In this document: one piece after another, positions 50,084 to 53,839 of the stretch
How the letters are laid out: each line of letters begins with the position of its first letter
How positions within the stretch are numbered: position 1 is the first letter of the stretch
From: Microbacterium murale
GTDB lineage: Bacteria; Actinomycetota; Actinomycetes; Actinomycetales; Microbacteriaceae
Assembly: GCF_014635185.1 (NCBI RefSeq)
Contig: NZ_BMCM01000002.1
Location: 1 to 64,000 of the forward strand
DNA length: 64,000 nt
Direction of reading: 5' to 3'
The notes under the pieces: model-generated
Database searches by the model: none
The model's input: only the letters and a program-made list of their open reading frames with translations
Told to the model about the DNA's origin: nothing
Position numbers and translations under genes: made by a program

Positions 50084-51406
50084 ATGTCCGCACCTGAGAC
50101 CTGGCGTTTCGAGACCAAGCAGATCCACTCGGGCGCCGCGCCCGACCCTGTCACGAAGGCCCGTGCCACGCCGATCTACCAGACGACGTCGTACGTCTTC
50201 GACAGCGCCGACCATGCGGCGAACCTCTTCGCGCTGGCCGAGTTCGGCAACATCTACACCCGCATCCAGAACCCGACGCAGGACGTTCTCGAGCAGCGGC
50301 TCGCGGCGCTCGAGGGGGGCACCGGCGCCCTCGTCCTCGCCAGCGGCCAGGCGGCATCGACGTTCGCGGTGCTGAACATCGCGCAGGCCGGCGACCACTT
50401 CGTCGCATCCAGCTCGATCTACGGCGGCACCTACAACCTCTTCAAGTACACCCTGGCCAAGCTGGGCATCGACGTCACGTTCGTCGAGAACCAGGATGAC
50501 GCCGAGGAATGGCGCCGCGCTGTCCGCCCGAACACGAAGCTGCTGTTCGCCGAGACGATCGGCAACCCGCGGATCAACGTGCTCGACATCCGCACCGTCG
50601 CCGACATCGCTCACGAGAACGGCGTGCCGCTCATCGTCGACAACACGATCGCGACCCCCTTCCTGCTGCGTCCGTTCGAGCACGGCGCCGACATCGTCGT
50701 CCACTCGGTCACCAAGTTCCTCGGCGGCCACGGCACCACCATCGGTGGCGCGATCATCGACGGCGGAACCTTCGAGTGGTCCAAGAACGTCGACAAGTTC
50801 CCCGGCCTCACCGAGCCGGACCCCTCATACCACGGCGCCAGCTACACCACTGCGGTGGGCGACCCGCTCGCGTACATCATCAAGGCCAGAGTGCAGCTGC
50901 TGCGCGACCTCGGCTCGGCGATCTCCCCGCAGAGCGCCTGGAACCTCATTCAGGGCATCGAGACGCTCTCGCTGCGTATCGAGCGCCACGTGCAGAACGC
51001 GCAGGAAGTCGCCGAGTGGCTCGACGGCCGCGATGACATCGCGTCGGTCAACTACTCCGGCCTGCCCACGTCCCCCTGGTACGCCAAGGCGAACGAGTAC
51101 CTGCCCAAGGGCGTCGGCGCCGTGCTGTCGTTCGAGCTGAAGGGCGGGGTGGAAGCCGGTCGCGAGTTCGTGAACAGCCTCTCGCTGTTCAGCCACCTCG
51201 CGAACATCGGTGATGTGCGCTCGCTCGTCATCCACCCGGCATCCACCACGCACTCGCAGCTCACCCCCGAGCAGCAGCTCACCTCCGGCGTCACGCCGGG
51301 CCTGGTGCGCCTGTCGGTCGGACTGGAAAACATCGACGACCTCAAGGCCGACCTCGAGCAGGCGCTCGACGCGGCTCGTCGTGTCTCGGAGGCCGCTCGC
51401 GCGTAG
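50084..51406 (+). CDS. metY: O-acetylhomoserine sulfhydrylase
   Basis: The 440-residue Cys/Met-metabolism PLP enzyme makes homocysteine from O-acetylhomoserine and sulfide. The PLP lysine is K211 in [16 protein letters not shown]; its large family members (about 430) are MetY rather than MetB/MetC. AGGGGGA precedes the ATG. It is the partner of MetX, whose gene is 1.2 kb downstream beyond the DUF559 gene. Confidence 0.96.
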
Positions 51407-51424: not shown

Positions 51425-51476
51425 AAAGGAGGAAAGTGTCGGTCATCTCGCAAATTGACCGGCACTTTCCTCCTTT
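51425..51476. repeat. palindromic repeat copy A
   Basis: This 52-base hairpin has 21-base arms (starting AAAGGAGGAAAGTG, ending CACTTTCCTCCTTT) with a single G-T mismatch and a 10-base loop. It begins 18 bases after the metY stop and ends at the DUF559 stop codon. A second copy lies at 52511-52562; the two match at 45 of 52 positions, differing mostly in the loop. Confidence 0.85.
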
Positions 51477-52405
51477 CACGCGTTCGAACGCGTAGCGATG
51501 GCGCGGCGAAGGTGCGTGAGCAGCGATGCACCGGCGTTCCTCAGATCGTCCTCGGTCAGACGGATCACGATCCATCCGAGCGCCTCCAGTTCACGCTGAC
51601 GCTGGATGTCGCGCCGCCACTGTCCCTTGTCCGTCCGATGACCGTCTCCCTCGTACTCGATCGCGATCTTCAGTCTCGGATAGGCCAGATCCACCCGGGC
51701 GATGAAGCGGCCGCGGTCGAAAACACCGCACTGGACCTCCGGCTCCGGGAGCCCCGCCGCGACGATCAGAAGTCTCGTCTCGGTCTCCTTCGGCGACTCC
51801 ACTCGCTCTCGTGCGAGAGGCAGAGCCTCCCGAACAGTCGCACACCCTGGGAATCGCCCCCAATGCGCGAGTCGATCGAAGATCAGCTGGCGCGTGGTCA
51901 TCGGACGCCGCGGTCCGAGGTCCGGGTAGTTGGATGCCGTCGTGATGAGCGCGTCGATGACCGTAACGGCTTGTGCGGTCGTCAGTTCGTGAGCGCAAGT
52001 GAAGAACGCGGCGACCGGATCCACAACCGGAACGCCCTTCAGGATCGTCGTCTCCGCGCGGTCCTCGGCGAGGCGGCGTCCCTTCACCCCGCCGGTTCTC
52101 GGAGGTGCCGTGTCCGGCGGAACCATCACCTCCAATGGTTCCTTCATCGTCCAGATCTCTGGATGCGGTAAGCCCCAGAGCCGCATCCCGGTACGTCCGC
52201 CGTAGCGGTGCCCATGCTTCATACGGCGGTGACAGCAGGCGACGAACTCCGTAAACGTCTTCGGAGCCTCCACCGCCCGCACGCCGTGGAACGGGCGATG
52301 GAGATCAGGAGAATTCCTCCGGGAGCGCCCCACTCCAGAAGCCTCGGCCTCGCGGATAGTGAAGGTCTCCCCCAGCGTTCGTGGCATTCGGGCTCGTGGT
52401 CGCAT
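51476..52405 (-). CDS. DUF559 (Vsr-like nuclease fold) protein with AbiEi-type N-terminal domain
   Basis: The 309-residue protein begins with a winged-helix-like AbiEi_4-type region (TIREAEASGVGRSRRNSPDLHRPFHGVRA). It ends with a DUF559/PD-(D/E)xK domain (about 205-305): ETETRLLIVAAG, RVDLAYPRLKIAIEYEG with candidate Asp and Glu ligands, and RQRELEALGWIVIRLTEDDL. This is the Vsr/MutH-like very-short-patch nuclease fold. I use ATG 52405 (CAGGAT six bases upstream). It lies antisense between metY and metX and is bracketed by palindromes. Activity and target are unknown. Confidence 0.83.
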   Translation of the reverse strand: MRPRARMPRTLGETFTIREAEASGVGRSRRNSPDLHRPFHGVRAVEAPKTFTEFVACCHRRMKHGHRYGGRTGMRLWGLPHPEIWTMKEPLEVMVPPDTAPPRTGGVKGRRLAEDRAETTILKGVPVVDPVAAFFTCAHELTTAQAVTVIDALITTASNYPDLGPRRPMTTRQLIFDRLAHWGRFPGCATVREALPLARERVESPKETETRLLIVAAGLPEPEVQCGVFDRGRFIARVDLAYPRLKIAIEYEGDGHRTDKGQWRRDIQRQRELEALGWIVIRLTEDDLRNAGASLLTHLRRAIATRSNA

Positions 52406-52411
52406 CGACAC

Positions 52412-52417
52412 ATCCTG
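52412..52417 (-). promoter_or_regulatory. candidate leaderless -10 of the DUF559 gene
   Basis: CAGGAT, one base off TANNNT, lies six bases before ATG 52405. Confidence 0.3.
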
Positions 52418-52510
52418 AGGCAGCCGTGCCGGCCGCGGCGCCTGCGATCACGGGAACCGTGGACAAGCCACGGCTCCATCCCACTGTGCAGGGCGAGTCC
52501 CGTCTCATAC

Positions 52511-52562
52511 GAAGGAGGAAAGTGTCGGTCATCCCGTGATTTGACGAGCACTTTCCTCCTTT
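52511..52562. repeat. palindromic repeat copy B
   Basis: Same length and sequence type as copy A, with outer stem GAAGGAGGAAAGTG/CACTTTCCTCCTTT, an internal 3-base mismatch, then GTCA/TGAC and a loop. It lies 105 bases upstream of the DUF559 start and 68 bases before metX. Confidence 0.85.
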
Positions 52563-52630: not shown

Positions 52631-53839
52631 ATGGACTGGCAGAGCACCTCCGAGGACACCGTGCCATCGGCGCGCGTGACGGAGGCAGATACCCGGCTGC
52701 TGCGCGCACGTCCACCCGTCACCGGCGCGTGGCGCGACGGCGACCCGGCCGGACACCGCAAGTTCGCGGCATCCGGACCCTTCCAGACCGAAAGCGGCGT
52801 GGAGCTTCCCAGCATCCGCATCGCCTACGAGACCTGGGGCGAGCTCAACGCGGCGCGTGACAACGCGATCCTCGTGCTGCACGCCCTCACCGGTGACAGC
52901 CACCTGCGTGGCGAAGCCGGCGCCGGCCATCCGACCGCCGGGTGGTGGCAGGAGATCGTCGGTCCAGGTGCCGCTATCGACACCGATCGTTGGTTCGTGA
53001 TCGCACCGAACATGCTCGGCGGCTGCCAGGGCACCACGGGTCCCGCCAGCGTCGCCCCGGACGGATACGAGTGGGCCTCCCGCTTCCCGTACCTCACCGT
53101 GCGCGACCAGGTCGCGGCGCACGTGCGCCTCGCGGATGCCATCGGCATCGATCGCTGGGCGGGCGTCATCGGCGGATCGATGGGCGGGATGCACGCACTG
53201 GAGTGGGCCGTCACGCACCCCGAACGCGTCGAGCGCCTCGCGGTGCTCTCCTCTCCCCCGGTCAACACCGCAGATCAGATCGCGCTGAACTCGGTGCAGC
53301 TCGAGGCGATCCGGATCGACCCTCGATTCCAGGGCGGCGAGTACTACGACCTCAGCGACGGAGAAGGCCCGCACCGTGGCCTCGCGCTTGCGCGTCGCAT
53401 GGCTCTGCTCAATTACCGCAGCCCGATCGAGCTCAACCAGCGGTTCCAGCGCTCCTGGCAGTCCGACGTCTCACCGCTCGGCCATGGCGGACGCTTCGCC
53501 GTCGAGTCATACCTCGACTTCCACGGCAACAAGTTCACCCGTCGCTTCGATGCGAACAGCTACCTGACGCTCGTGGAGGCCATGAATTCGCACGACGTCG
53601 GCCGCGACCGCGGCGGGGTCGAAGAGGCGCTGCGCGCCGTCACCGCGAAGACGCTCGTGCTCGGAATCGACACCGACCGGCTGTTCCCCGTCGACGGCCA
53701 GCATCGCATCGCGCGCAGCATCCCGAACACTCTCGACGGTCACGAGGCGGTCGTGCTGACCAGCGACTTCGGGCACGATGGCTTCCTCATCGAGACCGAA
53801 GCCGTCGGTGCGCACCTGCGGAGACTGCTCGACGCCTGA
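52631..53839 (+). CDS. metX: Homoserine O-acetyltransferase
   Basis: The 402-residue alpha/beta-hydrolase-fold enzyme acetylates homoserine for MetY. The nucleophile is S183 in GVIGGSMGGMHALEW, with the catalytic Asp in VLGIDTDRLFP and His in SDFGHDGFL; GGCQGTTGP is a MetX family motif. I start at ATG 52631; the frame open from 52208 runs antisense to the DUF559 gene. It is convergent with the NUDIX gene (14-base gap). Confidence 0.96.
   Translation: MDWQSTSEDTVPSARVTEADTRLLRARPPVTGAWRDGDPAGHRKFAASGPFQTESGVELPSIRIAYETWGELNAARDNAILVLHALTGDSHLRGEAGAGHPTAGWWQEIVGPGAAIDTDRWFVIAPNMLGGCQGTTGPASVAPDGYEWASRFPYLTVRDQVAAHVRLADAIGIDRWAGVIGGSMGGMHALEWAVTHPERVERLAVLSSPPVNTADQIALNSVQLEAIRIDPRFQGGEYYDLSDGEGPHRGLALARRMALLNYRSPIELNQRFQRSWQSDVSPLGHGGRFAVESYLDFHGNKFTRRFDANSYLTLVEAMNSHDVGRDRGGVEEALRAVTAKTLVLGIDTDRLFPVDGQHRIARSIPNTLDGHEAVVLTSDFGHDGFLIETEAVGAHLRRLLDA

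Follow-up and report, generated by a model that had tools for sequence, protein, structure and literature searches.

Why should a nuclease-type gene lie antisense between metY and metX, enclosed by two copies of one palindrome? We addressed this question at a locus of Microbacterium murale, within a stretch of 64,000 nucleotides that was analysed as a whole (the window). Between metY (50084..51406) and metX (52631..53839), both on the plus strand, lies a minus-strand gene of the DUF559 or Vsr-like (REase_MTES_1575-like) type (51476..52411). It encodes 311 amino acids when read from a GTG, and its DUF559 nuclease domain occupies residues 240–298 (51518..51694, minus strand). The downstream palindrome (51425..51476, assigned to neither strand), which we call type A, has the 46-nt core GGAGGAAAGTG..CACTTTCCTCC; it begins 18 bases past the metY stop and overlaps the DUF559 stop codon (TGA, minus strand, 51476–51478) by one base. 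An initial annotation of this DNA had described just such an antisense DUF559 gene between two bracketing 52-nt palindromes, and we confirmed it: the upstream palindrome (52511..52562, again assigned to neither strand) is identical to the downstream one at 45/52 positions. Its placing of the palindromes, one at the stop codon and the other 105 bases before the start, also proved correct, with the distance counted from the ATG at codon 3 (52405); from the GTG it is 99 bases. This ATG, supported by most relatives, appears the likelier start.

Of the 26 position pairs in each palindrome, 22 (51425–51476) and 18 (52511–52562) are self-complementary, and together the two rank first among the repeat families found in the 5-kb region. 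Their RNA folds on the two strands gave −38.2/−33.5 and −29.5/−27.2 kcal/mol, with z between −9.4 and −3.0. A half-site pattern allowing three mismatches or fewer occurred four times in the window against 0.25 expected, and no doublet partner was found beside either palindrome.

The window protein matched DUF559 (PF04480) with 24.8 bits, above the curated cut-off of 20.6, and REase_MTES_1575 (PF18741) with 34.9 bits, below the curated cut-off of 38.2, though with E = 1.6e-8. All 41 relatives compared match both families. Eight residues were invariant across them (D241, E252, E254, D256, H258, Q264, R266 and D268), and we take D241, E252, E254 and H258 to be the likely catalytic residues. No HUH family was among the 12 families listed for these relatives, and so the sign of an HUH tyrosine (Y1) transposase was not found there. 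The AbiEi-type N-terminal domain of the initial annotation remained unconfirmed: AbiEi_1 was found in 1/41 relatives at E = 0.22, and one Tsukamurella homologue matched AbiEi at E = 0.031, both below the Pfam cut-off. PADLOC models of anti-phage defence gave no clear match, only mREase_II at E = 0.02; the profile of alignment A1 retrieved no PDB sequence at E ≤ 10, and NCBIfam gave no match to protein P0001. Both DUF559 and MTES_1575 belong to the Vsr-like nuclease families in the available portions of published analyses (PMC3710099, PMC12907096).

To measure bracketing, the 240 bases upstream of a gene were compared with the 240 bases downstream, and z was calculated against 200 dinucleotide shuffles. 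In 198 genomes of the genus, among the matches listed, the clade of the window gene was defined by relatives of at least 53% identity; other full-length matches reached at most 41%, apart from one relative at 50% (L205). Thirty of the 44 clade members exceeded z = 4, and 27/44 scored above all 200 shuffles. Among more distant DUF559 genes (20 fetched, 19 testable, L151 having too little flank), 16 had z > 4. An alignment-based contig search, where a single-protein search had given none, yielded 124 loci; in the best 80 of them (78 testable, L212 and L216 being left out), z > 4 was observed for 26/43 close-clade genes, many identical to the 44 above, and for 25/35 others. The latter come mostly from other genera, and their z > 4 cases include Cryobacterium, Leifsonia, Rathayibacter, Agromyces and Agrococcus. 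Relatives in Arthrobacter, Tsukamurella and Nonomuraea were bracketed in 6/7 cases (z 14–27), Nonomuraea being the exception. The subfamily of locus L162 with its relatives, a set that overlaps the earlier ones, gave z > 4 at 23 of 28 testable loci (30 loci, without L282 and L284).

Only 4/217 other genes used as controls exceeded z = 4. By raw score, 65/115 distinct testable DUF559 units from the genus and its relatives scored 40 or more, against 1/327 control genes, and this lone control is a spurious reading frame with its flanks inside two coding regions that resemble each other (kinase-like by eye). The 115 derive from 118 distinct units (L083 and L208 are the same and were counted once), three of which were dropped from the score test. 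Bracketing and its specificity for DUF559 genes are direct observations, with about 31–43% of the units lacking a clear pair at the cut-offs used. In 54/82 bracketed units the upstream repeat is self-complementary (z > 3), and in the clear cases the two repeats are in direct orientation 22 times and inverted 11 times. Two clade genes, L083 (G182:C2) and L084 (G069:C1), are truncated or split and are perhaps decaying units.

The window genome alone has eight DUF559 genes, six of them distant and missed by tblastn. Seven are clearly bracketed, each by a different repeat pair, with z of 20–43, values slightly inflated by taking the best of several start codons per gene. Within-unit scores of the seven were 55–106, and the top cross score was 32. 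The eighth gene showed only a weak GC-rich match (z 4.1, score 31), of a strength that a few controls attain as well.

Palindrome sequences differ between units, and at protein identities under about 70% they show no apparent relationship. For this reason protein identity and palindrome similarity were weakly correlated when all pairs were taken (Spearman 0.19). We then considered the 345 unit pairs having homologous genes on both sides; both members are bracketed in 129, and the pairs share members, so that the counts are not independent. At 50–60% protein identity, the two palindromes of a unit matched each other better than orthologous positions did in 66/79 of the same-site pairs, and in 75/79 when the upstream orthologous position, which is less touched by neighbouring genes, was taken alone. 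The corresponding figures were 4/4 at 30–50%, 12/20 at 60–70%, 5/12 at 70–80% and 1/14 at 80% or more. By eye, the metY–metX insertions have GGAGGAAAGTG at both ends in G000, GGAGGAAATTG and GGAGGAAGTTG in G099, and AAGAAGAC at both ends in G133; in G096 and G182 the pair is degenerate or one-sided. Seven genomes carry two units, and in five of them both within-unit matches exceeded every cross match, by a narrow margin in the G096 comparison (24–25 versus 22); in G184 and G182 this holds for one of the two units. The two palindromes of a unit are thus directly seen to change jointly, and that this joint change and the DUF559–palindrome association are real is, in our judgement, very likely.

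Palindromes of the same types are also dispersed away from the nuclease genes. The window genome (3.9 Mb, 18 contigs) contains five type A palindromes, all with a 46-nt core: two at the window locus and three solo copies between unrelated genes (C2:637759, C6:105722 and C8:74434). The initial annotation had suggested asking whether copies of the palindrome co-occur with DUF559 genes; the palindrome does also lie beside unrelated genes, in these three of five cases, but dispersed copies are nearly always in genomes with the matching nuclease. Type A was found in 4/198 genomes (G000, G096, G099 and G147), the last having a single copy and units of other types.

Exact pairs of type B (GATGGAAAACG arms) occurred in 7/198 genomes, all seven with a clade gene. 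The exact copies occupy 26 places, seven at units and 19 elsewhere, and a reversed-pattern control gave none. At the 18 loci that hold the 19 off-unit copies there was no tblastn match to P0001 at E ≤ 0.01, a test that distant DUF559 genes can escape. A type B covariance model, used on 30 chosen genomes, gave 46 strand-matches in G061, 51 in G188, 35 in G115, 24 in G196, 20 in G064, 14 in G133 and 10 in G187, the number of places being about half as many. Another five genomes gave 1–6 strand-matches, of which G096, G111, G129 and G075 have a clade gene and G083, with one match, has none; 18/30 gave zero. The copy number of type B is low, about 5–25 per genome. Type C (GAGTGTCCAAGACAC) was found in 19/198 genomes, again with a reversed control of zero. 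It is present in 16/18 genomes with the L162 subfamily and in 3/180 without it (Fisher 1e-18), the subfamily limit (at least 51% identity, E < 1e-80) having been chosen after the list was seen; at a cut-off of E 1e-50 the figures were 18/68 versus 1/130 (1e-8). As the genomes are related by shared ancestry, these p-values are inflated. The two subfamily genomes without type C have the variant arm GAGAGTCC at their units, and of the three with type C and no close subfamily member (G016, G053 and G073), G053 retains a truncated relative. Dispersed copies that match a resident nuclease are in this way observed directly.

Core lengths are 46 nt in types A and B (one type B copy has 43) and 54–56 nt in type C. 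We aligned 25 of the 26 exact type B copies, leaving out the 43-nt copy. The outer 11 pairs are constant because the search pattern demands it. In the inner nine pairs, 48 cells were changed on both sides compared with 25.5 in shuffles, and the covariation score was 0.221 versus 0.110, a value reached in 0/500 shuffles. The inner stem covaries, a plain observation, and therefore its pairing has been kept, beyond sequence alone. Many type B copies come as doublets whose step is constant: 62–63 nt in G188, and 73 nt in both G115 and G064. At L320:997-1605 (G115:C11:24996-25604), four similar type B palindromes stand in a row at steps of about 180–200 bases.

We propose a gene-plus-repeat partnership, of which the window locus represents one unit: a solitary DUF559 (Vsr-like PD-(D/E)XK) protein would recognise the hairpin-forming palindrome found on both sides of its own gene. 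Every lineage of the nuclease would have a palindrome sequence of its own, and enzyme and palindrome would change together. The protein may bind the palindrome and nick or cut it, perhaps as a hairpin or cruciform. A pair of subunits perhaps acts on it, since palindrome length is nearly fixed within a type. As a further step, copying during repair or replication could put the palindrome, often as a doublet, into intergenic gaps elsewhere. Much as RAYT genes do, the nuclease gene itself appears for the most part to be passed down at a fixed position, with movement a rare event.

The distribution of sites bears on this proposal. The 118 distinct units fall into 52 sites when judged by both flanks and 39 when judged by either flank. 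The metY–metX insertion is found in five genomes of five species (G000, G096, G099, G182 and G133). Among the best 30 metX loci, which do not include that of G182, and with gaps measured between the ends of matches, a DUF559 gene lies between metY and metX in four; the gap is 119–233 bases in 11 and 1.11–1.24 kb without a clade gene in 12, and metY was unseen in three. Empty metY–metX sites among relatives, suggested as a check by the initial annotation, are directly observed; one is in G078 (MetX 91%), which has its own terminator-like hairpin there. In six of the 1.11–1.24-kb gaps (L130, L132, L135, L142, L145 and L146) there is, by eye, an endonuclease/exonuclease/phosphatase-type gene; this gap therefore takes up different inserts.

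From the sequences compared, the metY–metX insertion looks old and inherited from one event in the five species. A recent mobile cassette at this place was rejected as unsupported on this ground and because 345 unit pairs share sites. Of the solitary mobile cassette put forward in the initial annotation, the occupation of 39–52 sites and the empty sites survive; the mobility does not fare so well, as the units look old and inherited and no recent unit movement was seen. Spread by plasmids or phages was likewise rejected, as the seven plasmid records and one phage record hold only distant relatives of at most 36% identity. Two of the three Tsukamurella 'plasmids' carry purB or gatA: the Tsukamurella tyrosinosolvens records L358 and L359, with gatA and purB, therefore look like chromosome pieces.

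Another intergenic site follows a gene that is presumably YhgE-like. Solo palindromes stand 10–12 bases after it in G000 (type A), G096 (type A) and G133 (type B); L158, L161 and L162 instead carry a bracketed type C DUF559 unit at this site, and L236 has a DUF559 gene without a clear pair. It may be a preferred site (L114:2519, L264:2001), and the palindrome type differs by species. Different types at one intergenic site may reflect site preference or a host role rather than mobility. As an alternative, the unit could be a homing element, whose enzyme would cut the palindrome on a gene-less allele so that the gene is copied in by repair, the solo palindromes being empty targets or scars. The known Vsr-like (EDxHD) homing endonucleases, I-Bth0305I for instance, provide a precedent, and solo palindromes and DUF559 genes do occur at one site. 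However, the solo types there (A, A and B) differ from the unit type (C), and the solos are therefore not matching empty targets. The clear units, moreover, each have two complete palindromes, none of them split, and among the loci compared no two alleles with the same palindromes differed in whether the gene lies between them. We consider homing an unlikely explanation compared with the gene-plus-repeat partnership.

A slightly more doubtful possibility is that some other machinery spreads and maintains the palindromes and that the DUF559 genes are passengers between copies. At L261:2888-4009 (G188:C1:2349887-2351008), type B doublets flank a MerR-family gene with a GyrI-like domain, arranged just as in a DUF559 unit. 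The passenger explanation accommodates this gene readily, as well as the 19/26 exact type B copies away from clade genes; on the partnership reading the MerR-family gene is possibly a cargo version of the unit. Yet among the tested genes systematic bracketing was seen only at DUF559 genes, the 1/327 among controls being spurious. Passengers would also have no need of a palindrome type for each DUF559 subfamily, nor would types need to differ, as they do, between the units of one genome.

Less probable again is that the palindromes serve as operators through which the N-terminal domain regulates its own gene, in the manner of AbiEi-like antitoxins, whose promoters contain the inverted repeats that they bind. 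The median distance from the start of the upstream repeat to that of the gene is 171 bases, which suits an operator, and AbiEi autoregulation through inverted repeats is in print, in the part of that literature covered here. But the matched downstream copy, the solos and doublets at unrelated genes and the covarying inner stem would all be left unexplained, and the AbiEi assignment is under every Pfam cut-off.

The nusG–rplK gap is relevant to the remaining alternative. Of 30 loci, 20 were aligned, one per genome, and G196 alone has a type B palindrome there, placed after the nusG terminator hairpin and before the conserved stretch that precedes rplK. The terminator hairpin is clear by eye in 19/20 genomes, G196 among them. 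As the native terminator is intact beside it, the palindrome is not the terminator at nusG–rplK. Several solo copies, by rough reading-frame calls, lie between convergent genes, and a terminator scan that did not list the window hairpins was uninformative on them, as it admits loops of up to 8 and theirs measure 10 nt. That both window hairpins are bidirectional terminators or attenuators, as the initial annotation had offered as its alternative, is thus disfavoured and highly improbable: the hairpins are strong on both strands, and the downstream one lies between convergent genes like those solo copies, but no T run follows the stem beyond its own TTT, the upstream palindrome lies between divergent genes, the other 19 aligned genomes do without a palindrome next to nusG, in G133 and G182 a terminator-like hairpin persists after metY in addition to the palindrome of the unit, and terminators have no need to share sequence or to change in step.

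We therefore return to the gene-plus-repeat partnership, which as a whole we hold to be the probable explanation on the strength of these comparisons. Within it, recognition by the DUF559 enzyme of its own palindrome is likely, and dispersal of the palindrome by that enzyme is somewhat more likely than not. The REPIN-like element of the initial annotation was largely upheld, by the bracketing (65/115 versus 1/327), the co-occurrence of palindrome type with subfamily, and the solo and doublet copies elsewhere. It is an evenly balanced proposition that the Actinobacteria hold a large unrecognised REPtron-like class, independent in origin from HUH transposases, in which a DUF559 nuclease copies its own hairpin into intergenic gaps, singly or as doublets and sometimes with another gene between two doublets, and that a single genome can have at least seven such systems with as many hairpin specificities. 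Full-text literature searches, whose scope did not extend to preprints and most subscription papers, gave no account of DUF559 enzymes paired with dispersed palindromes. As no known system was found to couple this family with such palindromes, we judged the system to be of a new kind. DUF559 proteins are widespread and mostly unexplained, and a rule by which each acts on its own hairpin would give a direct, testable substrate for dozens of enzymes. It would further mean that REP-like dispersed repeats have also arisen independently of RAYT, and the natural series of co-changing nuclease–hairpin pairs would be useful for studying how specificity evolves.

Several known systems resemble the unit in part. 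Like an IS element with terminal inverted repeats, it has a single gene between matched repeats, but its ends are palindromes in either orientation and its DUF559 gene is no known transposase. With AbiEi antitoxins of type IV toxin–antitoxin systems it shares a possible weak resemblance at the N-terminus, below the Pfam cut-off, and inverted repeats near the gene; unlike them, its neighbours are metY and metX with no toxin partner, and its palindromes are also downstream and dispersed. Homing endonuclease genes sit in a single split target. The free-standing Vsr-like (EDxHD) ones, I-Bth0305I for example, are similar in being solitary Vsr-type genes at intergenic sites, present or absent among relatives, whereas the DUF559 gene has a complete hairpin on each side, and these hairpins are found dispersed in its absence as well. 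The Vsr and VsrA mismatch-repair endonucleases, including the DUF559-containing VsrA of Caulobacter, have the Pfam domain family in common with it, and the available portions of the VsrA literature describe no pairing with a palindrome.

The closest likeness is to REP and REPIN sequences with their RAYT (TnpA-REP, REPtron). Bracketing, dispersal, doublets, location near gene 3′ ends and several gene–repeat pairs per genome are features of REP/RAYT in the portions of the literature available (PMC3116915, PMC3733652, PMC8266576). Here, too, a nuclease-type gene, mostly inherited in place, is bracketed by palindromes that are also dispersed in the same genome; the matching copies, some single and some doubled, occupy intergenic positions that are often close to the 3′ end of a gene, and several gene–palindrome pairs, each with its own sequence, occur per genome. 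The differences are that the palindromes are 46–56 nt long against 20–40 bp for REPs in those portions, that type B has about 5–25 copies where REPs are described there as high in copy number, that the GTAG tag is absent at the edges of both window palindromes, and that the protein is DUF559/Vsr-like and not an HUH Y1 transposase as in RAYT. As the enzyme is unrelated to RAYT and GTAG is lacking, the unit is not a member of the REP/RAYT family, though it may work alike.
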